Shown: positions 10,682 to 48,972 of the stretch, in pieces
How positions within the stretch are numbered: the first letter of the stretch is position 1
Layout of the letters: the number at the start of each line of letters is the position of its first letter
From: Roseburia intestinalis L1-82
Lineage (GTDB): Bacteria > Bacillota > Clostridia > Lachnospirales > Lachnospiraceae
Length of the DNA stretch: 64,000 nt
Assembly: GCF_900537995.1 (NCBI RefSeq)
Contig: NZ_LR027880.1
Location: forward strand, 1,930,001-1,994,000
Reading direction: 5' to 3'
Notes under the pieces: generated by a model
Databases searched by the model: none
The model's input: only the letters and a program-made list of their open reading frames with translations
Told to the model about the DNA's origin: nothing
Program-made: the position numbers and the translations under genes

Positions 10682-13600
10682 GTGGCAAAGTCTTTGATAA
10701 TAACGGAGAAACCAAGTGTAGCGCAGGAATTTGCAAGGATTCTCGGCGTGAGCGGACGAAATGACGGATATATTGAAAATGACAAATATGTCATTACATG
10801 GTGTGTCGGCCATTTGGTGGAGATGGTCTATCCGGAAGAATACGATGAAAAATACAAAAGATGGAGGTTGGAAGATTTACCGTTTCTGCCGGAAGAATAT
10901 AAATACAATGTAATACCAGATGTCAGCAAACAGTATGATACGGTGCATCGGATGCTTTTCAGAGAGGACATAGAAACTGTCTACTGGGCAGGCGATGCCG
11001 GAAAAGAAGGACAGACGATTGAGGAAAATATCAGACGCTTTGGCGGGGTCAGACCGGGGATGAAAGAACTCCGTGTCTGGATTGACTCGCAGACGGAAGA
11101 GGAGATTCTGCGCGGAATCCGTGAGGCAAAGCCAATGGCAGAGTATGATAATCTGGCAAAATCCGGTATTATGCGCACAATTGAAGATTATGCAATGGGA
11201 ATCAATTTCTCCAGGGCGATGTCGGTAAAGTACGGGAAACTATTGAATGATGCTGCGGCGACTAAAAGTTATACGGCGATCGCGGTGGGACGAGTCATGA
11301 CCTGTGTACTTGGAATGGTCGTGATCCGTGAGCGGGAGATCCGCAACTTTGCGGAGACGCCGTTTTACCGTGTGGTGGGAGGATTCCTGCCGGAAGGCGC
11401 GGAAACGGAGGAGACAGTAACCGCAGAGTGGAAGGCGGTAAATGGTTCTAAATATTTTGAATCGCCCCTTTTGTATAAGGAAAATGGTTTTAAAAAGCGC
11501 GAAAGCGCGGAAAATCTGATCGGTGAACTTGACGGAAAACAGGCGGTCGTAAAATCCTTAGAGCGCGGCACATCCAGAAAGAAAGCACCGTTATTATTTA
11601 ACCTTGCAGAGTTACAGGCAGAGTGTTCGAAACGATATAAGATCAGCCCGGATGAGACGTTACAGGTGGCACAGGACTTATATGAGAAAAAACTGACGAC
11701 TTATCCGAGAACGGATGCGAGAGTGCTCTCGACGGCAGTTGCAAAGGAGATCGGGAAGAACTTAAATCGTTTAAAAACCTATGAGCCGACGAAAACTTAT
11801 ACGGAGCGTATTTTAAAAGAGGGTACTTACCGGAATATTGCACGTACACAGTATACTGACGATTCAAAGATCACCGATCACTATGCGATTATTCCGACCG
11901 GACAGCTCACAGAACTTGGTTCGTTAAGCGATTTACAGAGAAGAGTGTATGACCTGGTCGTGCGCCGCTTCTTAAGTATCTTTTATCCGGCGGCTGAGTA
12001 TGAAACGATCAAACTGGTGGTACAGGTGGGGGCAGAACAGCTTTTTGCATCTGCAAAGGTGTTAAAAAATCCGGGATTTCTTGAAATCATGGGAAGACCG
12101 GGAAATGATGAAAATAAGGAAGAAGAAAGTGCGGGACTCTTAAAACTGGCAGGGCAGTTAAAGACCGGTGATCCCCTGAAGGTGGACGGTTATGAGATCA
12201 AAGAGGGAAAGACCGCACCGCCGAAACGCTATACCTCCGGTTCGATGGTGCTTGCGATGGAAAATGCCGGACAGCTTATTGAGGAGGAAGAATTAAGGGA
12301 ACAGATCAAAGGCTCCGGAATCGGAACTTCTGCGACGAGAGCTGAGATCATCCGCAAACTGGTGCGTATCGGGTATCTGAATCTGAACCAAAAGACGCAG
12401 GTGCTAAGCCCGGAAGCGATCGGAGAGATGGTGTTTGAGGTGGTGAGCATGACCGTGCCGGCACTCTTAAATCCGAAGATGACGGCTTCCTGGGAAAAGG
12501 GACTCGACGGTATCACGCGTGGAACAGTCATCATGGAAGATTATCGCAGTAAACTGGAAGATTTTATCCGCAAAGAAACGGTTTCCATGATCGAACATGA
12601 CCTGACCGGCAATCTTGCGGCGAGGATTCATCCGTTTGTCGGAAAAGGCGGAAGAGGGCTTGCCGCAAAGAAAAAAATAGAGGCAGTCTGCCCGGTCTGT
12701 GGCGGGGAGATGGAGACGACACCGTTCGGCTATGGATGCAGCAATTATAAAAAGGACGGAAGCGGCTGTAAATTTTCCATCGGAACCATTGCGGGCAGAG
12801 ATTTAGCGGAAGAGGAAGTGGTCGAACTTCTGACGAAAGGACATACGGAAGTGCTCTCCGGTTTTATCTCAAAGTCCAGAAAACGCTTTTCTGCTGCACT
12901 GGTACTTGAAAAAGATGAGAATGGAAAAGCATCAGTCAATTTTGACTTTTCCAAAAATGAACCTGAAATATTAGAAGGGGTGAAATGTCCGGTCTGCGGT
13001 TCTGATATGGAAATCACTTCTTTTGGTTACAGTTGTGTGAAACACCGTGAAGATCCGGAAAGCTGTTATTTCTACATTGGAAAAATCGCGGGAAAATCCC
13101 TTAGTGTGGATGACCTGACTGATCTGCTGCAAAAAGGAGAGACGGAGGTCTTAAAAGGGTTTACCGCAAAAAATAAAAAGAAGTTTTCGGCGGCATTGCT
13201 TTTGAAAACAGGAGAGGATGGCAGAAAAACAGTCGAATTTGATTTTTCAAAGAATGAGGCAGAGATATTAGAAGATGTAGTCTGCCCGATGTGCGGCGGA
13301 CAGATCCAGAAAACATCATTTGGTTATGGCTGTATGAATTACGACCAGCAAAATCCGCAGAGCTGCCGCTTTGCCATCGGTACACTTGCCGGACGTGATC
13401 TGACAGAGTCACAGGTGAAATCACTTTTAACCGACGGCAGAACGGAGACGATCCGCGGTTTTAAGTCAAAGACGGGCAAAAAATTTGATGCCTGCGTGGC
13501 ATTAGAAACCGATGAAACCGGTCGGAAATATTTAAAGTTTGACTTTGATCATGCGGAGGCAAAAAAGATAAAAGATGTTTCCTGTCCGCTCTGCGGCGGT

Positions 13601-29930: not shown

Positions 29931-30294
29931 TAAAATACATCAGACTTTGATAAGGAATAGTAAGAATTTTTTATTTTTCAGAGAGCTGCCGGATGCTGCG
30001 AGACAGTAAAGAAAAATTCCCAACTCGCCTTTGAGTCCTTTTGTCCAAGCTATCAGTTAGGTTTATAGTGTGTAAGCAAAAGCGTGTTGTCCGCGTTAAG
30101 GATCATAAGAGCGTATTGTCTTGTTTTCATGTTAAAATTGATCTGACAGATGAGCAGATGGATTTTAAATATTGACAGATGGGAAATGAAATCAAAAGAA
30201 TACGAATTAGAGTGGTACCACGGAGTAAGATAGACTTCGTCTCTAAGAGGATGTGCAATTTTAAAAGCATATCTTCGGAGACGGAGTTTTTTTT
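29931..30294 (+). promoter_or_regulatory. T-box riboswitch leader of leuS, probable leucine specifier CUC
   Basis: The T-box element AGTGGTACCACGG is at 30211-30223. Stem I features upstream include AAGGAATAGTA and CAGAGAGCTG near 29953-29986 and the AACTCGCCTTTGAGT region at 30022-30036. The codon CTC at 30024-30026 is a good candidate specifier for tRNA-Leu. A terminator stem (30235-30244 with 30277-30286) is followed by eight T. In this class, uncharged tRNA pairs with the specifier and T-box and favours the antiterminator, so leuS is read when leucyl-tRNA is short. Confidence 0.88.
30235..30294 (+). terminator. T-box regulated terminator
   Basis: The ten-base stem (30235-30244 with 30277-30286, with wobble pairs) overlaps the region that would form the antiterminator with the T-box bulge. 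A run of T follows at 30287-30294. Confidence 0.8.
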
Positions 30295-30473: not shown

Positions 30474-32891
30474 ATGTCAGAACTTTACAATCACAAAGTC
30501 GTTGAGAAAAAATGGCAGAAAGTCTGGGATGACAATAAGGCTTTTGCTGCGACAGACGACTACAGCAAACCAAAATATTATGCACTGGTAGAATTCCCAT
30601 ATCCGTCAGGACAGGGACTTCATGTAGGTCATCCGAGACCTTATACAGCACTTGATATCGTAGCAAGAAAGCGCAGAATGCAGGGCTATAACGTACTGTA
30701 TCCGATGGGATGGGATGCATTCGGACTTCCGACTGAGAACTATGCGATCAAAAATAAGATCCATCCGAAGATTGTAACCGAGAATAACGTAAAGCGTTTC
30801 AAAGAGCAGCTTCATTCTTTGGGCTATTCTTTCGACTGGGACAGAGAGATCAACACTACAGATCCGAGTTATTACAAATGGACACAGTGGATTTTCTTAA
30901 AACTGTTTAAAGCAGGACTTGCTTACAAAAAAGAGATGCCGATCAACTGGTGTACTTCCTGTAAAGTAGGCCTGGCAAACGAGGAAGTTGTAAACGGTGT
31001 CTGCGAGCGCTGTGGTGCTCCGGTTGTCCGCAAGGTAAAGAGCGAGTGGATGTTAAAGATCACCGATTATGCTGAGAAGCTGTTAGAGGGATTAAATGAT
31101 GTAGATTATATCGAGCGTGTCAAGGTTTCCCAGAAAAACTGGATCGGTAAATCACAGGGTGCAGAGGTAGATTTTGCGATCGCCGGAAAAGAGGACAAAC
31201 TCCGTGTTTATACGACACGTTGTGATACATTATTTGGTGCTACTTACATGGTTGTATCTCCGGAGCATCCGATCATTGATAAATATAAAGACGAGTTAAA
31301 GAACTGGGATGCGATTGCTGCATACCGTGAGGAAGCTGCAAAGAAATCCGATTTTGAACGTTCAGAACTTGCAAAAGATAAGACGGGTGTGGAGATTGAC
31401 GGTCTTATGGCAGTCAATCCGGTAACCGGAAAAGAAATCCCGATCTGGATTTCCGATTATGTATTAATGTCTTACGGAACAGGCGCGATCATGGCAGTAC
31501 CGGCACATGATGAGAGGGACTGGGAATTTGCCAAAAAGTTCAATATTCCAATGGTACAGGTTGTTGCAAAAAATGGTGAGGAAGTTGACATCAACGAAGC
31601 GGCATTTACAGATGTTGCAACCGGTGTTCTGATCAATTCTGAGTTCTTAAACGGACTGGAAGTAAAAGATGCAAAGGCAAAAATGATTGCATTTTTAGAG
31701 GAAAAAGGCATTGGTACAGCAAAGACTAACTATAAATTAAGAGACTGGGTATTCTCCCGTCAGCGTTACTGGGGTGAGCCGATCCCGATCGTTCACTGCG
31801 ATAAATGCGGCTATGTGCCGATTGATGAGAGCGAGCTGCCACTGATGCTTCCTGAGGTAGAGAGCTACATGCCGACTGACAATGGAGAGTCACCGCTTGC
31901 TGCCATGACAGACTGGGTAAATACGACCTGTCCTTGTTGTGGAGGTCCTGCAAAGAGAGAGACAGATACAATGCCGCAGTGGGCTGGATCTTCCTGGTAT
32001 TTCTTAAGATATACCGATCCGCACAATGATGAGGCACTTGCAAGTCCGGAGGCATTAAAATACTGGATGCCGGTAGACTGGTACAACGGCGGTATGGAGC
32101 ATACAACACTCCATCTGTTATATTCCAGATTCTGGCATAAATTCCTCTATGACGAGAAAGTAGTTCCATGTCCGGAGCCTTACCAGAAACGTACTTCCCA
32201 CGGAATGATCCTTGGTGAGAACGGAGAGAAGATGTCAAAATCCAGAGGAAATGTCGTAAATCCGGATGATATCGTAAGAGAGTATGGTGCAGATACCTTA
32301 AGAACTTATGAGATGTTCATTGGAGCATTTGATTTAAGTGCATCCTGGTCTGAGGATGGCGTCAAGGGCTGCCGTCGTTTCTTAGAGCGTGTATGGAAGT
32401 TACAGGACATCATGACAGAAGAAACCGGATATTCCAAAGAACTTGAGACAAAGATGCATCAGACCATCAAGAAAGTCAGCAGCGATTATGAAAATCTGAA
32501 ATACAATACCGCGATCGCTGCAATGATGGCTTTGATTAACGAGTTCTATAAGAAAAATGCTGTGACTAAGGGCGAGTATGAGACACTCTTAATTCTGTTA
32601 AACCCTGTTGCTCCGCATATCACAGAGGAACTCTGGCAGATCATTGGCGGAACAGGTTATGTATACCAGCAGAAATGGCCGGAATTTGACGAGGCAAAAA
32701 CAGTTGAAAATACGGTTGAGATCGCAGTACAGATCAATGGAAAAACGAAAGGAACATTGGCAATCGGCAGAAATGACGCAAAAGATGATGTTATTGCAAA
32801 AGCAAAAGAATCAATTGCAGATAAGCTGACTGGAAACATTGTAAAAGAGATTTACGTTCCGGGAAGAATTGTCAATATTGTAATGAAATAA
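30474..32891 (+). CDS. leuS: Leucine--tRNA ligase
   Basis: LeuRS charges tRNA-Leu. The 805-residue size is normal. The class I signature HVGH sits in [16 protein letters not shown] near residue 50 and the KMSKS loop in [10 protein letters not shown] near residue 585. The editing domain lies between ([28 protein letters not shown]), followed by zinc-type cysteine pairs ([15 protein letters not shown]). The ATG at 30474 is five bases behind AAGGAGG. The gene is controlled by the T-box leader, and a MATE gene follows one base after the stop. Confidence 0.98.
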
Positions 32892-37436: not shown

Positions 37437-38312
37437 TCAAATATAATAGGAATCATCCTGCATGGTTTTCGAATCTGTTTGTTTCAGTTTACGGTATTGC
37501 AGGGGTGACATACCTGTATTCTTTCGGAAAATCTGCGAAAAATACGACTGTGATGAAAAACCTGTGCTGGATGCAACTTCTGCAATCGAGCGACTGGAGC
37601 TGAGCAATAGTTCTTTGCTTGCAGCGAGTCTGGTTTCCATCAGGTAATTGATGGGGGATGTTCCAACATACTCCGTAAAAGAATGTGATAAATAAAATTT
37701 GTTGATATGGGTGATTTCAGCGAGCAGATCTAAAGTAATATTTTTTGCATAATTAGCATCAATATATTTTTTCGCAACAAAACATTCCTTTGATATTTGC
37801 AAAGTGGTATCAGATATGACAGAAAGATGCTGTTCGCGTGTAATATAAACAAGCAAAACCTGTAGGAGACCATGACAGATTGCTTCAAAACCTGGCTTTC
37901 TTGCATTAAACTCTTTTATCATAATCTGGGAAAAATTAATAAAGTGTGTTTTGGCGGAACCATAATTATAGTAGCTGTATCCTTTTGGGTTAGCAGCGTT
38001 TTGGGAATTAAAATAGAAAGCGAGCCCTTCTACACCAAATACAATATAGGTCATAGGATCGTTTGACATCGTTTTTTCCGTATGTTCAATATGTGGATTT
38101 ATGATTATCAGATCGTCTGCACATACAGAAACCGTATCATTTTCAATGTAAAATACACCTTTTCCACTGATAACATAGAAAAGTTCAGAAAACTGATGGG
38201 TGTGAGGGTGGCTTTGCCAATCCCCTTCGTATTTAGAAATAGAAATATAACGAAGTTTAAAATCCGGATCGGGTACTCCTTTGTACTCAAAATTAATTAA
38301 TTCATTACTCAT
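37437..38312 (-). CDS. AraC-family transcriptional regulator of the glycan locus
   Basis: A 291-residue AraC regulator. The N-terminal cupin-like sensor contains HPHTHQFSELFYVISGKG and the C-terminal two-helix-turn-helix unit contains LLAEITHINKFYLSHSF and ASSTGFSSQSYFSQIFRKN, ending at GMSPLQYRKLK. An AGGAAG site precedes the start. It is divergent from the GH112 gene, and the 269-base gap is very AT-rich. It probably activates the locus in response to a sugar such as lacto-N-biose or lacto-N-tetraose; the inducer is inferred from the neighbours. Confidence 0.9.
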   Translation of the reverse strand: MSNELINFEYKGVPDPDFKLRYISISKYEGDWQSHPHTHQFSELFYVISGKGVFYIENDTVSVCADDLIIINPHIEHTEKTMSNDPMTYIVFGVEGLAFYFNSQNAANPKGYSYYNYGSAKTHFINFSQIMIKEFNARKPGFEAICHGLLQVLLVYITREQHLSVISDTTLQISKECFVAKKYIDANYAKNITLDLLAEITHINKFYLSHSFTEYVGTSPINYLMETRLAASKELLLSSSRSIAEVASSTGFSSQSYFSQIFRKNTGMSPLQYRKLKQTDSKTMQDDSYYI

Positions 38313-38581
38313 TTGTATTATCTTCCTGTTGTATCAAATTTTATATCTTATAGATTAAAACCGCAATATTACTAAAATAATGTTGTGAAACTGATGAATA
38401 AAATAGCAATTAAATAGGGTTTCTTATTGCAAGTATACAGTAATTTATGATAAATGCAAATATTTTATTGAGTATAAAGCAAGATATATAAAAATTAGAG
38501 CAACATAAAAATTGAAGCAGTTGATGCAGACAGATATACTTAAAAACATCAGGTGATGAGACAAGAAAGGAGAAGACAGGA
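38313..38581. promoter_or_regulatory. AT-rich divergent regulatory region of the glycan locus
   Basis: These 269 bases between the AraC gene and the GH112 gene are AT-rich throughout and hold no convincing reading frame. Several near-promoter sequences such as TTGAGT occur, but none has a fitting partner at 16-18 bases, so I cannot name the start sites. It is the expected binding place of the AraC-type regulator. Confidence 0.45.
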
Positions 38582-40744
38582 ATGACAAAACAAACAGGCA
38601 GACTGACATTGCCGACCGATGCAGACATTGTCGAGGAAACCATACGATTGAAAAATCTTCTTGGAGCAGATGCATTGCGTGACTGTGACGGAACGGAGAT
38701 GCCGGATGCGTTATTGAATGAGCCGGTAAAGAAATATGCAACGTATTATACGACCAGAAAGGATAATGCCTGGGCCGAGCAAAATCCGGAAGAGATTCAA
38801 CAGGAATACCTGATCAGCAATCGCGTAACTGCAAGAAGTGAAAAACTATGTATAAGATTGATGGAAGGATTTCATACACAGCAGTTAAAAGTCAATACGT
38901 TGGATGATCCCAAAAGATGGTGGGAAGTAATTGATCGCACAACGGGTGAAGTGGTTTCTGTCGATGACTGGGAATTTAAAAAAGAACGGGAAGAAGTTGA
39001 AATAAAAACCATTCCTTATCATGAATATACGGTAAGTTTTCTGGCGTTTTTAATATGGGATCCTGTACATATGTATAACTTTATTACAAATGATTGGAAA
39101 GATACACCACATCAACTGACATATGATGTGCGGCAGCCGAAAACCCAGAAGTACGTAAAAGAAAAATTAAAACGCTGGTGTGAAGAAAACCCGCAGATCG
39201 ACGTGGTAAGATTTACAACTTTTTTTCACCAGTTTACACTTACCTTTGATGATAAAAAACGTGAAAAATTTGTAGAATGGTTTGGATATAGTGCAAGTGT
39301 AAGTCCATACATATTAGAGAAATTTGAAAAGTGGGCAGGGTATAAATTCAGACCGGAATTTATTGTGGATCAGGGATATCACAACAGCATGTTCCGTGTG
39401 CCAAGTCGTGAGTTTAAGGATTTTATTGAATTCCAGCAGCAGGAAGTTTGTGCGCTTGCCAAGGAACTTGTAGATATTGTTCATTCCTATGGAAAAGAAG
39501 CGATGATGTTTTTGGGAGATCATTGGATAGGGACGGAACCATACGGAAAATATTTTGCAGAAATTGGTCTGGATGCAGTAGTTGGTTCTGTTGGCAGTGG
39601 TGTGACACTCCGTATGATTTCAGATATAAAAGGGGTTAAATATACAGAAGGAAGGCTTTTGCCATATTTTTTCCCCGACGTGTTTGGAGAAGGCGGAGAT
39701 CCCATAGGGGAGGCAAAGGACAACTGGATGAAAGCGAGAAGGGCAATTTTACGTTCTCCGCTTGACCGCATCGGATATGGCGGATATTTAAAATTGGCCA
39801 GTGAATGGCCGGGATTTATAGAAGAGATTCAAAGTGTTGTCGGGGAATTCAGACAGATACATGAAAATATGAACGGGACGAAATCTTATGTTGCACCATT
39901 TAAAGTAGCAGTTTTAAACTGTTGGGGAGGTTTGCGGAAATGGATGTCAAACCAGGTGCATCATGCAATATGGCACAGAGAAACTTATTCTGCAGAGGGA
40001 GTGCTGGAATGTCTGAGTGGAATGCCGTTTGATGTGGAATTTATCTCTTTTGATGATGTGAAAAAAGGAATCCCAAAAGATATCAGGGTGATCATCAATG
40101 TTGGAGATGCATATACGTCATTCAGTGGAGCTGAAAATTGGATTGATGAAGCAGTTGTAACAACGTTAAGACAGTTTGTGGATGAAGGTGGTGGATTTAT
40201 CGGAGTAGGAGAACCGACAGCATATCAGCATCAGGGAAGATTTTTCCAGCTGGCGGATGTGCTTGGTGTAGATCGTGAGATGGGTTTTTCACTAAGTACA
40301 GATAAATATAACGAGAAAAATCCGCAGCATTTTATCTTGGAAGATATTGAAGGGGATATTGATTTCGGAGAAGGTACGACCCGCATTTATGCGCAGGGAG
40401 ATCATTATCAGATTCTTGCAATGGATGGAGAATACAGCCAGCTGGTTGTTAATCAATACGGAAAAGGTCACGGTGTTTACTTTGCAGGATTGCCGTATTC
40501 CCCTCAGAACTGCCGTATTCTGCTTCGTGCAATTTATTATGCAGCGGGAATGGAACAGGAGATGAAACGATATTACGTAACAAATGTAGATACTGAGGTC
40601 ACTGTTTTTCAGAAAACGCAAAAAATAGCTGTCATAAATAATTCAGGAAAAGAATGTCAGACAGATCTGTATATCAATGGCGATTTTATCGTAAGGTTGA
40701 CACTAGAACCAGGAGAAATGCGGTGGTTGAATGAGACAATGTAA
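38582..40744 (+). CDS. GH112 1,3-beta-galactosyl-N-acetylhexosamine phosphorylase
   Basis: A 720-residue GH112 enzyme that phosphorolyses Gal-beta-1,3-GlcNAc (lacto-N-biose) or Gal-beta-1,3-GalNAc to galactose 1-phosphate and the hexosamine. The length matches bifidobacterial lacto-N-biose phosphorylase. The N-terminal barrel carries FTTFFHQFTLTF and MMFLGDHWIGTEPYGKYF, and the second part has an amidotransferase-like fold with GGGFIGVGEPTAYQHQGR. No signal peptide is present, so it acts inside the cell. GAAAGGAGAAG precedes the ATG. Its preference between LNB and GNB cannot be read from the sequence. Confidence 0.92.
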   Translation: MTKQTGRLTLPTDADIVEETIRLKNLLGADALRDCDGTEMPDALLNEPVKKYATYYTTRKDNAWAEQNPEEIQQEYLISNRVTARSEKLCIRLMEGFHTQQLKVNTLDDPKRWWEVIDRTTGEVVSVDDWEFKKEREEVEIKTIPYHEYTVSFLAFLIWDPVHMYNFITNDWKDTPHQLTYDVRQPKTQKYVKEKLKRWCEENPQIDVVRFTTFFHQFTLTFDDKKREKFVEWFGYSASVSPYILEKFEKWAGYKFRPEFIVDQGYHNSMFRVPSREFKDFIEFQQQEVCALAKELVDIVHSYGKEAMMFLGDHWIGTEPYGKYFAEIGLDAVVGSVGSGVTLRMISDIKGVKYTEGRLLPYFFPDVFGEGGDPIGEAKDNWMKARRAILRSPLDRIGYGGYLKLASEWPGFIEEIQSVVGEFRQIHENMNGTKSYVAPFKVAVLNCWGGLRKWMSNQVHHAIWHRETYSAEGVLECLSGMPFDVEFISFDDVKKGIPKDIRVIINVGDAYTSFSGAENWIDEAVVTTLRQFVDEGGGFIGVGEPTAYQHQGRFFQLADVLGVDREMGFSLSTDKYNEKNPQHFILEDIEGDIDFGEGTTRIYAQGDHYQILAMDGEYSQLVVNQYGKGHGVYFAGLPYSPQNCRILLRAIYYAAGMEQEMKRYYVTNVDTEVTVFQKTQKIAVINNSGKECQTDLYINGDFIVRLTLEPGEMRWLNETM

Positions 40745-40826
40745 CTATTGATAATTTATGAGTGGTATCATACCGTCATATTTTATAAAATAAAAAAATA
40801 ATAATTTTTGCAGGGAGGTATTTTTT

Positions 40827-42185
40827 ATGAAGAAAAAAGCATTGGGATTCATGTTGGCAGCAACTATGACAGTATCTGTGTTTGCCGGATGTGGTGGGAA
40901 CCAAAATGAAGGAAACACGAACGAAAAAGAAAATGTTACGAACAGTAATGAGGATACGCAGAGTGTTTCCGCAGAAACAAATGAAAATGGAGATGAAACA
41001 CTTACGGTATGGTGCTGGGATCCCACTTTTAATATTTATGCCATGGAACAGGCAGAAAAGATTTATCAGAAAGACCATCCAGATTTTAAACTGGATATTC
41101 AGGAAAATATTTATAATGATATTGAGACAAAGCTGATTACAGCTGCAACGTCAGGAGATTACAGTACTTTACCGGATATTTTTCTGATGCAGGACTATTC
41201 ATTCCATAAAAATATTGCCAATTTTCCTGGAATTTTTACAGAATTAACAGATTCCGGAATTGATTTTTCGCAGTTTACAGAGGGAAAACTTGCAGATTCC
41301 ACGGCAGAGGGAAAAAATTATGGACTTCCTTTTGATAATGGTGCAACGATTATGGCAATTCGTTCGGATATGGTAGAGGCGGCAGGTCTTACGGTTGACG
41401 ATTTTAAGGATACTACATGGTCACAGTTTGAGGAACTTGCAAAAAAAGTAGTAGAGGCGAATGGAGTGCCAATGATCGCTTCCTCCGGTGGATCCGAATT
41501 ACTTATGGAAATGCTGCAGTCGGCAGGAGCCTCACCAATTGTTGACGGAAAGGTTCATATTGCAGACAATGAAGCGTTAAAAAAGACAATGGAAGTTTAT
41601 AAAAAATTAGTTGATGAGGGTATTATTGCCGAGTATACGGACTGGGATCAGTATATTGCCTCTATGAATGACGGAAAAACAGCAGGAGTGATCAATGGAT
41701 GCTGGATCATGTCATCCATTCAGGCGGCAGAGGATCAGTCAGGAAAATGGGCAATTGTAAACATGCCAAAACTGGATGGAGTTGATGGAGCCACAAATTA
41801 TGCAAATTGTGGTGGTGCAAGCTGGGCAGTATCTTCTAACTGTAAGAATACAGAACTTGCATTTGATTTCTTAAAATCTACATTTGGAAGCAGTGTGGAA
41901 TTATATGATGATCTGTTGCCGAATGCAGGTGCGATTGCAAGCTACATTCCGGCTGCACAGTCTGATGTATATAATCAGGCATCAGATTTTTATGGTGGAC
42001 AGGCAGTATATAAAGATATCGTTGGATATGCAGGTTCGGTTCCAGCATTTGACTGTGGTGCATACTATTCGGACATAAGAAGTGCATTGACAGATGCAAT
42101 CACAAATGTTGTTCAGAATAATGCTGATATTGACGGTGAAATGAATAATGCACAGGAAACATTAGAATTTAATATTGAAAATTAA
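40827..42185 (+). CDS. ABC sugar-binding lipoprotein of the lacto-N-tetraose/lacto-N-biose transporter
   Basis: A 452-residue substrate-binding protein of the carbohydrate (CUT1) type. The signal peptide ends VSVFAGCGG with the lipidated cysteine at C22. An acidic, Asn/Glu-rich linker is followed by the mature lobes (LTVWCWDPTFN, AATSGDYSTLPDIFLMQDY). GGGAGG precedes the ATG. It is preceded by GH112 and followed by two permeases, so its ligand is probably a host beta-1,3-galactosyl glycan. The hairpin downstream may raise its level relative to the permeases. Confidence 0.92.
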   Translation: MKKKALGFMLAATMTVSVFAGCGGNQNEGNTNEKENVTNSNEDTQSVSAETNENGDETLTVWCWDPTFNIYAMEQAEKIYQKDHPDFKLDIQENIYNDIETKLITAATSGDYSTLPDIFLMQDYSFHKNIANFPGIFTELTDSGIDFSQFTEGKLADSTAEGKNYGLPFDNGATIMAIRSDMVEAAGLTVDDFKDTTWSQFEELAKKVVEANGVPMIASSGGSELLMEMLQSAGASPIVDGKVHIADNEALKKTMEVYKKLVDEGIIAEYTDWDQYIASMNDGKTAGVINGCWIMSSIQAAEDQSGKWAIVNMPKLDGVDGATNYANCGGASWAVSSNCKNTELAFDFLKSTFGSSVELYDDLLPNAGAIASYIPAAQSDVYNQASDFYGGQAVYKDIVGYAGSVPAFDCGAYYSDIRSALTDAITNVVQNNADIDGEMNNAQETLEFNIEN

Positions 42186-42202
42186 ATATGTAAAGTGGTT
42201 TG

Positions 42203-42231
42203 TACCGGGAACAAATTTTATGTTCCCGGTA
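42203..42231 (+). promoter_or_regulatory. Intercistronic hairpin between binding protein and permease genes
   Basis: A perfect 11-base-pair stem (42203-42213 with 42221-42231) and a seven-base loop AATTTTA, with no T-run following. Such structures commonly protect the upstream message or reduce downstream expression in ABC-transport operons. Confidence 0.8.
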
Positions 42232-42250
42232 TTACATTAGGAGAAAATAT

Positions 42251-43135
42251 ATGGAGAAAAAAAGAAAATTAAGTCTGGAAAGAAAACATAACCTCACTGG
42301 TTGGGCGTTTTTGCTTCCGGCAGCTATATTGATTTTTGTATTTTGTTTTTATCCCATGATACAGGCGCTTATGCTGTCATTTAAGAATGGTATGGGAGAT
42401 TCTGTAAGGTGGGTTGGATTTGCAAACTATGTCAGGATACTGAAGGACAAAACATTTTTGCAGTGCCTTTTCAATACAGTATTTTATTTTATCATACAGG
42501 TTCCAGTCATGTTGATCATTGCCCTTGTTCTTGCTCAATTACTGAACAATCCGAATATAAAGGGAAAAGGAATCTATCGAACTATGATTTTCCTGCCATG
42601 TGCAACATCACTGGTATCGTATTCTATGATTTTTAAGTCACTGTTTGCGCAGGATGGTCTGGTAAATCACGTTATTTCTGCGATTGGACTTCCGACCGTA
42701 GACTGGTTTCAGAATGCATGGGCTGCAAGATTTGTAATTATAATCGCGTTGGTCTGGAGATGGACCGGTTACAATATGGTGTTTTATCTTGCAGGGCTGC
42801 AGAATATTGATTATTCCGTCTATGAGGCGAGTCGTATTGATGGGGCATCACCGTTTCAACAGTTTACAAAGATCACCATTCCACTGTTAAAGCCTACCAT
42901 ATTACTGACGGCTATTATGTCAACGTCTGGAACACTGCAGTTGTTTGACGAGTCTGTAAATTTAACGGCTGGTGGACCGGGAAAGTCAACAATGACATTG
43001 ACGCATTATATTTATAACATTTCTTTTGTGGAGACACCAAAATTTAATTATGCGGCAGCACTTTCAGTGTTTATCCTTATTATAGTGGCAATTTTGTCTG
43101 CAATTCAAATGAAAGTAGGTGACAAACGTGAGTAA
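42251..43135 (+). CDS. Sugar ABC transporter permease (MalF type)
   Basis: A 294-residue permease with six hydrophobic helices. The EAA-type loop is YEASRIDGASPFQQFTKITI (about residues 197-216), which contacts the transport ATPase. The ATG at 42251 follows AGGAG with seven bases spacing; upstream in-frame codons run through the hairpin and are not likely to be used. It pairs with the next permease. No ATPase gene is in the locus, so it probably uses a shared MsmX-type ATPase made elsewhere. Confidence 0.92.
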   Translation: MEKKRKLSLERKHNLTGWAFLLPAAILIFVFCFYPMIQALMLSFKNGMGDSVRWVGFANYVRILKDKTFLQCLFNTVFYFIIQVPVMLIIALVLAQLLNNPNIKGKGIYRTMIFLPCATSLVSYSMIFKSLFAQDGLVNHVISAIGLPTVDWFQNAWAARFVIIIALVWRWTGYNMVFYLAGLQNIDYSVYEASRIDGASPFQQFTKITIPLLKPTILLTAIMSTSGTLQLFDESVNLTAGGPGKSTMTLTHYIYNISFVETPKFNYAAALSVFILIIVAILSAIQMKVGDKRE

Positions 43136-43934
43136 AGGAAAATTATGTATATCACATATTGTATTGATTTTTGCAAGTTTTTTGTCTGTATTTCCACTAT
43201 ATTACATGGTTTGTGGTGCAACCAATCAAAGTATTGATGTGGTCAGGGGAAAACTGCTTCCTGGAACATATTTAGTCGAAAATTTTAAGGCATTGATTGC
43301 CAATCAGAATCTGGGGCTGGCAATGATCAATTCATTTCGAAATGCGATTCTTATGACGATTATCACATTATTGGTCTGTTCAATTGCAGGTTATGGATTT
43401 GAAATTTATCATGATAAGGGAAAAGACATATTGATGAGTGTATTGTTGTTAGCTATGATGCTGCCATTTGTTGCAATCATGATCCCGCTTTTTAAAATGA
43501 TCTCTTCCTGGAATCTGGTCAATAGCTGGATTGCATTTGTTTTGCCGTCTATTTCAACGCCATTTATGATTATGATGTTCCGTCAGGCGGCGCGGTCTTT
43601 CCCTCATGATATTATAGAGGCGGCTCGTCTGGAGGGGCTAAGTGAAATACAGATTTTTTTCCGGATGTTTGTGCCTGTTATGAAATCAACATATGGAGCT
43701 GCAATGACGGTTACTTTTATGAACGCATGGAATAGTTATCTGTGGCCAAAGATTGTCTTTCAAAATAATGATTCCATCACAATGCCAATGCTTGTGGCAA
43801 ACTTAAAAAGCGGCTACAGTGTTGATTATGGGATGTTGATGCTCGGTGTACTGATCTGTACACTTCCGACGGCGATTATTTTCTTATGTCTGCAGAAAAG
43901 TTTTGCAAATGGAATTACGGGGGCTGTTAAATGA
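43128..43934 (+). CDS. Sugar ABC transporter permease (MalG type)
   Basis: A 268-residue permease with six helices and the EAA loop IEAARLEGLSEIQIFFRMFV. The GTG start at 43128 has AGGTGA five bases ahead; an earlier GTG at 43119 would overlap that site. It overlaps the preceding gene by eight bases and the next (ATGA) by four, so the genes from the first permease to the GH136 subunits are tightly coupled in translation. It forms the membrane heterodimer with the MalF-type protein. Confidence 0.92.
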   Translation: MSKGKLCISHIVLIFASFLSVFPLYYMVCGATNQSIDVVRGKLLPGTYLVENFKALIANQNLGLAMINSFRNAILMTIITLLVCSIAGYGFEIYHDKGKDILMSVLLLAMMLPFVAIMIPLFKMISSWNLVNSWIAFVLPSISTPFMIMMFRQAARSFPHDIIEAARLEGLSEIQIFFRMFVPVMKSTYGAAMTVTFMNAWNSYLWPKIVFQNNDSITMPMLVANLKSGYSVDYGMLMLGVLICTLPTAIIFLCLQKSFANGITGAVK

Positions 43935-44395
43935 TAGAAAAAAGATACTGCCTTACACCAGAAGAGTGGGCATATGCGAAAGCCGAACTTGTTCTTGCAG
44001 AAAAGCTGGGGTTGATTGAAAACGCCGATATAGAGGCGTTGGAAAAAAGATGTGCAGAAAAAAATGAAGAGAATGCCAGGCTTGAAATGGAGAAAAAGGT
44101 ATTTTACGGACCGCGCAGATATTCATTGCCGATGTATCTACAGTATGAATTGACGCGTTTCCGGTTAGATTTTGTACAGCCGACAGAAAATATTAGAAAA
44201 TCAGGAATCAGTCCGGAGATTACAGAAAATCAGAAAAAAGCTTTCTATGAACGGAATAAAGATTTATTTGGAAGATATTTTGGAGATCTTTTTTCTTATG
44301 AAGAGGTAGAGCAGATCATTGAAAAAAGATTGCGGGAGGAAGTGTATGACAGACTTGTGCAGGAAATATTATGTCGATTCGATAAACGGAAGTGA
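43931..44395 (+). CDS. GH136 lacto-N-biosidase small subunit (GH136 I-type)
   Basis: A 154-residue protein, mainly helical and highly charged, without signal peptide or membrane segment. It begins MIEKRYCLTPEEWAYAK and later has YGPRRYSLPMYLQYELT. In published Roseburia and Eubacterium GH136 enzymes an N-terminal helical domain or a separate short protein is required for the beta-helix part to fold or act; the position and size here match that separate 'I' part. The identification comes from context and recall of that work. The next gene starts inside its last 50 bases. Confidence 0.72.
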   Translation: MIEKRYCLTPEEWAYAKAELVLAEKLGLIENADIEALEKRCAEKNEENARLEMEKKVFYGPRRYSLPMYLQYELTRFRLDFVQPTENIRKSGISPEITENQKKAFYERNKDLFGRYFGDLFSYEEVEQIIEKRLREEVYDRLVQEILCRFDKRK

Positions 44396-45632
44396 TACCA
44401 ATGACGGTTTGAGTGAAAACAGTGCATTCGCAAGTCTTTTTGCCATCAATAGGCTTGCACTAAAACCGGGGGATCACATATTGCTTGCGTGTGGAAGTGT
44501 TTTTGAAAAACAGTTTTTACAGATTCGTGACAGCGGAACAAAGCAGATGCCGATTGTAATTGGAAGTTATGGATGTGGTGAAGATCCTCTGATAAAGACA
44601 GACGGACAGGGAATCTGGTATCAGGATTATGGAAAAGAACTGGATTCGCCGATGCATGTTTACCATGGTTATGTTTCCTCGGCAGTACTTCTATTTGATG
44701 CCGAGTATATTATCATACAGGATATTGAGATTACAAACAGTGCGGATAAAGTGATCGGCGAAAATTATTCACAGGCAGATAAAATGGAGCGTACAGGTGT
44801 TGCAGTCGTTGCAAAAGAGAAAGGTTTAAGATGTGGAATCACACTTCGAAATCTTAAAATCCATGATGTTCATGGAAATGTTTATGACAAGCATATGAAT
44901 AATGGCGGCATCTATATGACAGCATTACAGCCAGCGGAAGAAGCAATGACAGGAGTGGCAAGATTTTCAGATATCCTGGTGGAGGGATGCTATGTATATC
45001 GTGTGAGCCGTTGGGGGATCGCAGTCGGGTATAGTTATGCACATGAGAAATTTGCGGGTGCAGAACTGGATAAAAAAAGGTTTTTGAAATATGGTCATGA
45101 GAATATTGTGATACGGGATAATTATGTGAAAATGGCAGGTGGAGATGGAATAACGGTCATGTATGCACTGCGCCCGTTTGTGGAACATAATATGACCGAT
45201 TCTGTGGCATGTGAGATCAATGACCGTATTTATTGCAATCCGGGCAACCGTGGTGGAAAGGTTGCTGCGGCAATCTGGCCATGGAAATGTAAAGATGCGT
45301 TGTTTTGTTATAATGAAGTGGCAGACACGCGGCTGAATCAGGACGGGATGGCTTACGATGCAGATTCCGGGGATGGAACGGTGTATGAGTATAATTACAG
45401 CAGGCAAAATGAAGGCGGTTGTGTGATGTTTTGTATGCAGGAGGCCATTCATAACACATTTCGTAATAACGTCAGTTATGATGATTTAGGTGGAACCATC
45501 AGCCCGTCCGAAAACCCGGATGCACTGCTTACAGATAATATATTTTATGTTCGCAAGGGAGTTCCTTTTGTGAGAAAGAATATGGATGGTGGAAACTTTA
45601 CGGAAGAAAATAATCAGATCATACAGTTATAA
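44346..45632 (+). CDS. GH136 lacto-N-biosidase catalytic subunit (beta-helix, GH136 II-type)
   Basis: A 428-residue right-handed beta-helix protein that probably releases lacto-N-biose from lacto-N-tetraose. Repeated helix rungs run from about residue 110 (YIIIQDIEITNSA, ITLRNLKIHDVHG, ILVEGCYVYRVS, IVIRDNYVKMAGGDGI). Two aspartates, D333 and D340 in QDGMAYDADSGD, have the seven-residue spacing of the catalytic pair of the bifidobacterial enzyme LnbX. There is no signal peptide, so it should act on imported substrate. GGGAGGA five bases ahead fixes the ATG at 44346, inside the preceding gene. Confidence 0.82.
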   Translation: MTDLCRKYYVDSINGSDTNDGLSENSAFASLFAINRLALKPGDHILLACGSVFEKQFLQIRDSGTKQMPIVIGSYGCGEDPLIKTDGQGIWYQDYGKELDSPMHVYHGYVSSAVLLFDAEYIIIQDIEITNSADKVIGENYSQADKMERTGVAVVAKEKGLRCGITLRNLKIHDVHGNVYDKHMNNGGIYMTALQPAEEAMTGVARFSDILVEGCYVYRVSRWGIAVGYSYAHEKFAGAELDKKRFLKYGHENIVIRDNYVKMAGGDGITVMYALRPFVEHNMTDSVACEINDRIYCNPGNRGGKVAAAIWPWKCKDALFCYNEVADTRLNQDGMAYDADSGDGTVYEYNYSRQNEGGCVMFCMQEAIHNTFRNNVSYDDLGGTISPSENPDALLTDNIFYVRKGVPFVRKNMDGGNFTEENNQIIQL

Positions 45633-46820: not shown

Positions 46821-46916
46821 GTGTCATTCGAACATCACTGTAGCATAAAAATGAATATGCTACAAGCATTCACTTTTTTTCTTTGATATTTTGCATCAGA
46901 TATGATAGAGTATAAT
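46821..46916. repeat. Left copy of the 96-bp direct repeat flanking the IS element
   Basis: Identical to 48877-48972 over 96 bases. The base on each outer side differs, so the match ends there. It contains a TATAAT at its right end (46911-46916) and fits a long target-site duplication. Confidence 0.93.
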
Positions 46917-48876
46917 CTCATCTTTGACAGTTGATTAGTTAAAAAAGTGCCACAATCCCTGTAAATACAAGGGGGGTGGCACTTTTATCTGCATACACGA
47001 AATATAGTAATGTTTTATCTCCGCTTACTTTTTTTCTGAATTCCTTTCATTTTCCGTTTTGTTATGAATTGATAGTCCGTTCTGAATCCGCAGGTTTCAT
47101 GGAGATCATCAGTGATTTCCTGACGTTCATATACCGGCATGAAGCCCTGTTCTTCTATATCCGTAAATTTTATGTCTTTTAAAGTGTGAAGTAATTGTTC
47201 TGTGGTATAAGTCCCTTTCAAGGAGCGGTTTAATAACCGGAAATGTAACAGAGCAAGAAAGCAGGTGAGGAAATGAGCTTTAATCCGATCTTCACGGTTT
47301 AAGTAAACGGGTCTGGCTTCAAAGTCTGTTTTCATAGTTCTGAAACAGTCTTCAATCTGCCATCTTCCTTCACTGACTTTTAAGATATCTGCAACGTCAT
47401 CATCAAGCAGGTCTGTACATACCGCATAAAGTCCGTCATACATTTCTTCTTCAGCAATCTTATCCGTATCGAGATAATAGTGGATCTTAGCTTTTTCTCC
47501 TTCGTTGGTTACAGCTACCTTATTTACAAATCTTGCAGGATCATTTGGATTTTTACGCTGTTTTTTTAGAGAGCCATTTGCAACCATTTTTTCTGCCCGA
47601 CAGATCTGCTCCGCACGGATGGCTTTCTGATAAGCGGCATATTTAGGGGAGTAGGTTATGATTAATTTTTGATCCAGTTTTTTTGTTGTCAATGGTTCGT
47701 CTTTATAATAAAGCTGGTTCTTGTCATCATCTGTCAGTTTTGTGAGATCAACAGGTTTATCATCTGAGAGACGTTTGAAGCCAGTTTTCTTTAAAGCCCA
47801 TGCCCGGTCTTCAGCAGGCAGCTTTTTGATGGACTGAGTGACAATAAATGCCCTCTGTCCCATGTGATTAAGAACACGGTTATCCTCAGAAGCAAGTCCG
47901 GCGTCACTACAATAGATAAACTTATCACAGCCGAATTGTTGGAGAATCTTTGTTTCTAAAGGTTTTAAGGATTTCTGCTCATTTTGGTTTCCAGGAAAGA
48001 GTGAGAAAGCCAAAGGTATTCCGTCACCATCTGTAAAGAGTCCCATTTGAATAATGGGATTCGGACGGTGCTCTTTGCTTTTTCCGTATTTTTTATCTCC
48101 ATCTTCCTGTTCGATTTCAAAGTAGTAGTTTGTGCAATCATAATAAAGGATCCGATCCATTCTGTCACCAAGAAAAAAGCTGTTTTTATAAACTTCTGAT
48201 TGAATAAAATCCATTTCAGAAGCAAGAACAGAAAGAGCTCGGTAAACATCATGAAGTTCATAAGTTGGAGGCTCAAGGAACTGTTTTGCTGCTCGAAAGG
48301 AAGAACTTTTGCTGGAAGGTTCCAGAACCCTTGTATAAATTAAATCAGATAAAATAGCATTAAGATCATACTCGAATTTATGTCGGCTTTTGATTTTTCG
48401 GCAGACAGAATCGAGCTTAAGTCCATAGTAAATAGACTGAAGAAAAAGATATCCGCCAGAAAAAAGTTTCTGCTTATTATAGTCCATGAGTCTGTTGGAA
48501 TGAAATGGAATCATGACAGTAGCATCCTCTTTTTCACTTTTATATTTCAGTGTTTCAAGACGAGCCTGTTCATTTGCCCATTCAACAACTCCGTCACGAT
48601 CCGTGTGGAGCTGCGCCGATAATTCAGCTAACGTACCTAATTTTCGGATGGTTTTGGAAGTACTTTTCCCATTGGCATTTGTATAGGACTGAGTGATGTA
48701 AAAGGACTCAGAATTTTTTGATTTTGATGTTGTTATACGCACAATAATCACCTCTGTCACTATTATACCACATATCACCAAATATTACTATATAATAAAA
48801 ATAAAAATTTGACAAAAAAATAAGCCTATTTCAAGGCTTTGTGGTACTTTTTTGGATTTCAATGTGTCAAACTCCC
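46917..48876 (-). mobile_element. IS1634-type insertion sequence, intact
   Basis: An element of about 1960 bases holding one intact transposase on the minus strand. Its ends carry imperfect inverted repeats: TTTGACA at 46923-46929 and again (reverse strand) at 48865-48871, each followed after 11 bases by AAAAAAGT and CCACAA. Five to six outermost bases on each side do not pair. The 96-bp flanking direct repeats are far longer than usual for IS elements but are known for IS1634, which makes long and variable duplications. Insertion lies between apbE and proB and breaks no gene. Confidence 0.88.
47015..48742 (-). CDS. IS1634-family transposase
   Basis: A 575-residue DDE transposase of the IS4-like superfamily, IS1634 group. 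The N-terminus reads VRITTSKSKNSESFYI. The catalytic residues are probably the aspartates in YYDCTNYYF and IYCSDAGLAS and the glutamate in RWQIEDCFRTMKTDF, the YREK-like part of this group. The GTG start at 48742 has AGGTGA seven bases ahead, so an upstream ATG at 48781 is less likely. The reading frame is uninterrupted, so the element may still be mobile. Confidence 0.93.
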   Translation of the reverse strand: MRITTSKSKNSESFYITQSYTNANGKSTSKTIRKLGTLAELSAQLHTDRDGVVEWANEQARLETLKYKSEKEDATVMIPFHSNRLMDYNKQKLFSGGYLFLQSIYYGLKLDSVCRKIKSRHKFEYDLNAILSDLIYTRVLEPSSKSSSFRAAKQFLEPPTYELHDVYRALSVLASEMDFIQSEVYKNSFFLGDRMDRILYYDCTNYYFEIEQEDGDKKYGKSKEHRPNPIIQMGLFTDGDGIPLAFSLFPGNQNEQKSLKPLETKILQQFGCDKFIYCSDAGLASEDNRVLNHMGQRAFIVTQSIKKLPAEDRAWALKKTGFKRLSDDKPVDLTKLTDDDKNQLYYKDEPLTTKKLDQKLIITYSPKYAAYQKAIRAEQICRAEKMVANGSLKKQRKNPNDPARFVNKVAVTNEGEKAKIHYYLDTDKIAEEEMYDGLYAVCTDLLDDDVADILKVSEGRWQIEDCFRTMKTDFEARPVYLNREDRIKAHFLTCFLALLHFRLLNRSLKGTYTTEQLLHTLKDIKFTDIEEQGFMPVYERQEITDDLHETCGFRTDYQFITKRKMKGIQKKSKRR

Positions 48877-48972
48877 GTGTCATTCGAACATCACTGTAGC
48901 ATAAAAATGAATATGCTACAAGCATTCACTTTTTTTCTTTGATATTTTGCATCAGATATGATAGAGTATAAT
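48877..48972. repeat. Right copy of the 96-bp direct repeat, containing the likely proB promoter
   Basis: Perfect copy of 46821-46916. Its end holds TATAAT (48967-48972), the probable -10 of proB, 55 bases from the start. Because the repeat carries it, insertion left the proB promoter region intact. Confidence 0.9.

Follow-up and report, generated by a model that had tools for sequence, protein, structure and literature searches.

A predicted milk- and mucin-glycan operon of Roseburia intestinalis L1-82 with an intracellular two-gene GH136 lacto-N-biosidase

The genome of Roseburia intestinalis L1-82, a butyrate-producing gut species, was analysed over a stretch of 64 kb (contig NZ_LR027880.1, positions 1,930,001 to 1,994,000; hereafter the window), which carries a compact operon of the type associated with human milk oligosaccharides (HMO) and mucin glycans. 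In support of the species name, a GH10 protein encoded by this genome matches PDB chain 6sgf, a beta-xylanase entry for the CBM86 of R. intestinalis, at 138 of 138 aligned residues. An AraC-type regulator diverges from plus-strand genes encoding, in this order, a glycoside hydrolase family 112 (GH112) phosphorylase, a binding protein, permeases A and B and the two family GH136 proteins GH136I and GH136II, the last of which ends at 45632. Family searches confirmed this arrangement, already described in an initial annotation of the same DNA, with the regulator lying just outside the range then assigned to the locus. The features are given below in window coordinates; numbers with L denote loci, and numbers with G genomes, of the comparisons presented later.

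37437..38312, minus strand, AraC-family regulator with cupin/AraC_binding and HTH_18 domains (Pfam), divergent from the operon
38479..38515, plus strand, candidate regulator operator, two (G/A)CAA half-sites 21 bp apart, reaching the -35 element (pattern from the window, L002, L006 and L123; putative function)
38512..38540, plus strand, sigma-70-like promoter TTGAAG-17-TATACT (consensus scan, 9/12 matches)
38582..40744, plus strand, GH112 beta-1,3-galactosyl-N-acetylhexosamine phosphorylase, 720 aa (TIGR02336, 1057 bits; aligned to 3wfz)
40827..42185, plus strand, CUT1-type solute-binding lipoprotein, 452 aa (SBP_bac_8/SBP_bac_1)
42202..42232, plus strand, 12-bp hairpin without a T-run, between the binding-protein and permease A genes (folding)
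42251..43135, plus strand, CUT1 permease A (BPD_transp_1; listed open reading frame from 42200, AGGAG before ATG 42251)
43119..43934, plus strand, CUT1 permease B, 271 aa (BPD_transp_1)
43931..44395, plus strand, GH136I, LnbY-like helical subunit, 154 aa, no recognisable signal peptide (6kqs alignment)
44346..45632, plus strand, GH136II, catalytic beta-helix subunit, 428 aa, no recognisable signal peptide (6kqs alignment)

The starts of two of these genes were chosen by their ribosome-binding sites: ATG 44346 behind GGAGG is the likely start of GH136II, in preference to TTG 44319, and ATG 42251 is likewise preferred over TTG 42200 for permease A. The GH136I and GH136II genes overlap by 50 bases. 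The parts of the Roseburia HMO utilisation locus type (PMC7335108), namely GH112, GH136, an ABC transporter and a regulator, are all present.

The identity of the GH136 pair was established by comparison with the lacto-N-biosidase of Eubacterium ramulus, ErLnb136 (6kqs). GH136II aligned with it over residues 7-425 of 428 with 63% identity (E 1.6e-176), and GH136I at chain positions 63-179 (E 4.8e-17). The residues named for ErLnb136 in the available text of PMC7335108, W548, D568, D575 and subunit-I Y145, correspond in the alignment to W313, D333 and D340 of GH136II and Y116 of GH136I (the 6kqs chain numbering being offset by two); the acid/base and nucleophile Asp, the stacking Trp and the subunit-I Tyr are all kept. 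The models for the bifidobacterial proteins also matched, below their cut-offs (NF047894 LnbY on GH136I, 36.6 bits against 400; NF047897 LnbX on GH136II, 304.7 bits against 2500). Neither protein has a recognisable signal peptide, as judged from start-site reading and the hydropathy of the first 60 residues, with no dedicated predictor applied, which bears out what had been proposed from the sequence at first. The best 12-residue Kyte-Doolittle mean within these 60 residues was 1.35 for GH136I and 1.51 for GH136II (at residue 28), compared with 1.92 for the binding protein and 2.92 and 2.80 for the permeases, and the alignment of GH136II to the solved fold already begins at residue 7. GH136I and GH136II are therefore predicted to form a two-subunit intracellular enzyme releasing lacto-N-biose (LNB) from lacto-N-tetraose (LNT).

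The phosphorylase passed the TIGR02336 equivalog cut-off of 560.3 with 1057 bits, and its alignment to 3wfz retained the position of D313, which we take to be the acid catalyst of GH112. Its predicted substrates are LNB and galacto-N-biose (GNB). Across the whole genome a single GH112 and a single GH136 match were found, and this locus is the sole such route detected.

The binding protein begins with a signal in which a lipobox-like VFAGC was read by eye. Together with the permeases it is 74-82% identical to the proteins of the R. hominis-like locus L123, the closest such locus of the same genus (genome G035), the binding protein itself being 74% identical. A search with the UgpC ATPase model gave 105 matches in the genome, only one of them above the cut-off, at genome positions 3228730-3229830, and the closest solved relatives of this ATPase are 7x0q and MsmX 6yir. 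The composition is that of a CUT1 importer with a shared ATPase: the locus supplies the binding protein and both permeases but lacks an ATPase gene, and the genome encodes elsewhere an MsmX-type ATPase, which we infer to power this importer. A search of the window (tblastn, E 1e-8) revealed no match for this genome's MsmX-type ATPase, GalT, GalK or LacZ. The initial annotation was right that the locus lacks its own ATPase and kinase or galactose-1-phosphate genes; the novelty it saw in this lack was rejected, because these genes are encoded elsewhere in the genome and the 19-kb stretch of L123 is likewise without MsmX-type ATPase, GalT or GalK (a weak LacZ match there has 25% identity).

A candidate gene for every step of the pathway is present in the genome. 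The lacZ, galK and galT genes are grouped at 1295089-1302535, with one unnamed open reading frame between lacZ and galK; nagA lies at 4033582; two ROK kinases were found, as were four GH42 matches, two of them strong, and nine GH2 matches. Galactose-1-phosphate is the direct product of GH112 according to the consulted part of PMC7335108, and no galactokinase is consequently required on that arm.

These genes very probably constitute a Roseburia-type HMO and mucin-glycan operon that imports its substrate whole, cleaves it inside the cell and phosphorolyses the product. The binding protein and permeases, with the shared MsmX-type ATPase, would import LNT, LNB and GNB; a cytoplasmic GH136I-GH136II complex would split LNT into LNB and lactose; and GH112 would phosphorolyse LNB or GNB to galactose-1-phosphate and N-acetylglucosamine (GlcNAc) or N-acetylgalactosamine. 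LacZ would then act on lactose and GalT on galactose-1-phosphate, GlcNAc being handled by an N-acetylhexosamine kinase and NagA, while the divergent AraC protein would activate the operon from a direct-repeat site adjoining the -35 element. This order of events, proposed at the outset, is well supported by homology and agrees with the model published for R. hominis in the accessible text of PMC7335108.

Several observations weigh against this interpretation. The case for this copy is built on genes and homology, the accessible text of PMC7335108 reports no growth of R. intestinalis on LNT, and the action of the two ROK kinases on GlcNAc is a prediction. GH136I, with its 154 aa, is compared with an ErLnb136 domain of residues 7-224 and is, by alignment, about 30 residues shorter N-terminally and about 40 C-terminally. 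Yet GH136I of L123 is equally short, and short forms are common: among the 120 homologues listed of 262 found, in a search that restricted candidate length, 108 measure 145-179 aa. GH112 shares only 56-57% identity with its R. hominis-like counterpart and falls in a deeply separate clade of the tree, so that equal use of LNB and GNB is not directly transferable from the R. hominis enzyme.

The locus might instead serve mainly for GNB and LNB freed from mucin or glycolipids by other bacteria, with LNT cleavage secondary. According to the available text of PMC7335108, the R. hominis binding protein favours LNB, followed by GNB and LNT, and this protein and GH112 increase in co-culture with Akkermansia on mucin. 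In the same direction, the related locus L129 has a transporter and a GH112 of the types found here and reaches its contig end without a visible GH136; its genome G022, 68% complete, gave no GH136 match. The operon has nevertheless kept both GH136 genes with their active-site residues intact, which GNB and LNB use would not need, and we consider this explanation less likely than not. It is highly improbable that the GH136 pair has acquired a different specificity, for example the Lewis-a/b release seen in R. inulinivorans: although GH136 specificities diverge within Roseburia (PMC7335108, as far as consulted), the pair has 63% identity to the LNT-cleaving ErLnb136 and keeps the named active-site residues, no fucosidase was recognised among the window translations (by reading, no fucosidase family search having been made), and the R. 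inulinivorans enzyme is predicted to be extracellular (PMC7335108, same portion).

Regulation of the operon was approached through its promoter region. Upstream of GH112 lies GCAA-N17-GCAAC, which reaches into the -35 element, and the same arrangement with 21-bp spacing stands ahead of the leading gene of the operon in L002, L006 and L123. In L123 the first operon gene after the candidate is that of the binding protein, and the AraC protein is just 39% identical. Direct half-sites separated by two helical turns next to a -35 element would suit an AraC-type activator, and the candidate operator 38479-38515 may be bound by the divergent regulator. The full pattern was derived from the promoters of the window, L002, L006 and L123 and matches there by construction. 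Allowing up to 2 mismatches it was found once in the whole genome, as was its reversed control, and a scan of the window likewise gave one match; at 3 mismatches 10 of 100 window shuffles contained a match. In the Gemmiger loci L003-L005 the half-sites stand 18 bp apart and the full pattern (14/20) is no better than chance, 76-97 of 300 resampled sequences being as good. The pattern was marginal in L014 (16/20; 10/300) and not significant in L027, L129, L063 and L016 (63, 69, 285 and 213 of 300, respectively). The consensus scan found 39 promoter sites compared with 29.5 (sd 6.3) in shuffles, which makes the promoter call weak on its own. Further downstream, the strong hairpin 42202-42232 may raise binding-protein output or mRNA level; the 75 nt folded around it gave -21.4 kcal/mol (z -3.52), a stability reached by 1 of 200 shuffles. 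A literature search on a Roseburia HMO AraC regulon returned no report.

The distribution of this gene order was examined among relatives encoded on 123 genome stretches, the best 80 of which were kept as 78 loci; many of these end at contig ends, and absences are soft. A split, short GH136 with the orthologous binding protein and GH112 before it occurred in 5/78, L002-L006, each with a divergent AraC gene. These five have identical gene order and orientation and belong to [Ruminococcus] faecis, three Gemmiger formicilis genomes and Lachnospiraceae bacterium GAM79; the exact layout, once put forward as novel, is thus common to several genomes and was rejected as a novelty. The orthologous binding protein was accompanied by a downstream GH112 in one locus and by no visible GH112 in five (four split, one fused). 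Without that binding protein, a split GH136 was followed by GH112 in 23 loci and stood without GH112 in 10, and a fused GH136 was found in three. GH136II exceeded 500 aa in 29 loci, and a short GH136II with no subunit I seen occurred in two.

Some individual loci showed further features. In L006 (GAM79) a gene at 11499-12197, directly downstream of GH136II, encodes an ABC ATPase that shares 50% identity with MsmX across 234 residues and might serve that locus, a point of caution for the comparison of ATPase content. The window type of GH112 was also found in two same-genus genomes (L128, L129); in L129 it follows the orthologous transporter, perhaps as an LNB/GNB-only version. Two Spirochaetales metagenome bins (L063, L064) contain the orthologous transporter and a split GH136, with permease B 80-82% identical, which could be due to transfer or a binning error.

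GH112 was compared with LeuC, the sole control applied to the whole set of genomes, and the outcome points to exchange of the cassette among gut Firmicutes of different families. The Gemmiger and GAM79 copies of GH112 (L003-L006) share 85-87% identity with that of the window and the copy of the R. hominis-like genome G035 shares 56-57%, whereas LeuC identity is 96% for G035 and G022, 93% for G034, 87% for GAM79, 83% (partial) for G009 and 68% for two Gemmiger genomes. [Ruminococcus] faecis, whose LeuC matches reach only 42% and probably represent another homologue, provides no control. Gemmiger, with high GH112 and low LeuC identity, and G035, with the reverse, are thus discordant, which indicates that horizontal exchange of the cassette somewhere, in either direction, is likely. 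GAM79 (87% for both proteins) and G009 (79% for GH112, 83%, partial, for LeuC) agree with plain descent and speak against transfer. Among 60 same-genus genomes drawn, 27 (own included) had a GH112 match, which besides the own genome exceeded 70% only in G009 (79%) and G022 (82%, partial). A GH136II match below E 1e-200 was confined to G000 and G035 among 36 same-genus genomes (own included; completeness from 58%).

Trees of a quick kind were built for both enzymes. For GH112, 41 of the 52 loci with a match covered >90% of the query; the own-genome copies L001 and L113 were dropped and the window was added, giving 40 rows, 37 of them different, with L002 absent. The window grouped with GAM79 and the three Gemmiger copies (96, starred), a wider set added G009 and Anaerobium (100, starred), and the eight other same-genus genomes of the tree stood apart. 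In the GH136II tree, from which identity <=57% or coverage <=90% was excluded (49 rows, the G035 copy in three), Gemmiger was the neighbour of the window (support 93, not starred) and the R. hominis-like copy fell within the same 9-row set, so this tree backs transfer less clearly than that of GH112. The GC content of the locus, 39.7% compared with 42.6% in the window, is a weak sign of horizontal origin.

On this basis R. intestinalis may carry, rather than the R. hominis locus by descent, a horizontally travelling GH112-first cassette common to Gemmiger (Oscillospiraceae) and other Lachnospiraceae, with a GH112 of a separate clade, perhaps a different LNB/GNB preference, and a conserved direct-repeat AraC operator. 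This proposal is tentative and held at somewhat less than even confidence; it is weakened because GH112 identity in GAM79 and G009 agrees with LeuC. No clean empty site emerged, since L132, L134 and the short L133 have LysR-leuC-leuD without the cassette genes and the queried right-hand genes (ApbE, IS1634, proB and on) were not found there either.

The left flank of the AraC gene consists of leuC-leuD, named by reading alone, and the LysR-leuC-leuD arrangement is seen in relatives. Beyond 45632 an ApbE gene in opposite orientation is followed by an IS1634-family transposase. The element at 46839-48920 has its transposase (47015-48781) between two identical 26-nt copies, each near-palindromic, which are possibly its target duplications. 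A T-box leader at 29938-30247 (RF00230, 103.4 bits) precedes a gene at 30474 whose product, on reading, resembles leucyl-tRNA synthetase, and leuCD- and ilv-like genes, also named by reading, lie nearby.

The system is of a published kind and the locus has very probably been noted already. In the available text of PMC7335108 (Pichler et al., 2020), R. hominis grows on LNT, LNB and GNB, with proteome, enzyme and binding data; its co-expressed GH136 pair and its GH112 are active, and its binding protein has the affinity order LNB > GNB > LNT. The same text uses GH112, GH136I and GH136II of R. intestinalis L1-82 as reference sequences, and we infer that this very locus is drawn in its Supplementary Fig. 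1. The consulted parts of PMC10629584 and PMC8950772 include no GH112 or GH136 of R. intestinalis among the enzymes tested, and a literature search on GH136 of Gemmiger formicilis returned no report. The genome of a butyrate producer encodes every part of an import-first pathway for type-1 glycans of milk and mucin; no concept is changed, because this route is already established in the sister species, and what is new here is modest, namely the cassette exchange signal and the direct-repeat operator candidate.

Among known systems, L002-L006 share all seven genes in the same order and orientation, and differ in AraC (42-69% identical) and GH136I (55-60%); L002 has broken reading frames in GH112 (pieces 77-91%) and permease B, perhaps assembly errors. 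The HMO locus of R. hominis A2-183 (RhLNBBP, RhLnb136I/II, RhGLnbp112) likewise comprises a binding protein, two permeases, an intracellular two-gene GH136, GH112 and an AraC-type regulator. RHOM_04110 is its GH136I (PMC7335108, as far as consulted) and RHOM_04120 its GH112, as given in the part of the source seen, and the gene order GH136I-GH136II-GH112 of L123 fits this published locus. L123 resembles the window in the missing ATPase, GalT and GalK, and departs from it in having GH112 last instead of first, in the sequence of GH112 and AraC and in lying distant from leuC in that genome. The ErLnb136 locus of E. ramulus encodes a GH136 that agrees with the window pair in its two domains and its catalytic residues, but with the subunits fused in one protein and with GH42 where the window has GH112 (PMC7335108, available text). 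Finally, LnbX/LnbY of Bifidobacterium longum share the GH136 catalytic beta-helix and the required partner protein; unlike the R. intestinalis pair, they carry a signal peptide and transmembrane segments (PMC7335108, same text) and, in the source as consulted, lie outside any locus with other carbohydrate-active enzyme genes.

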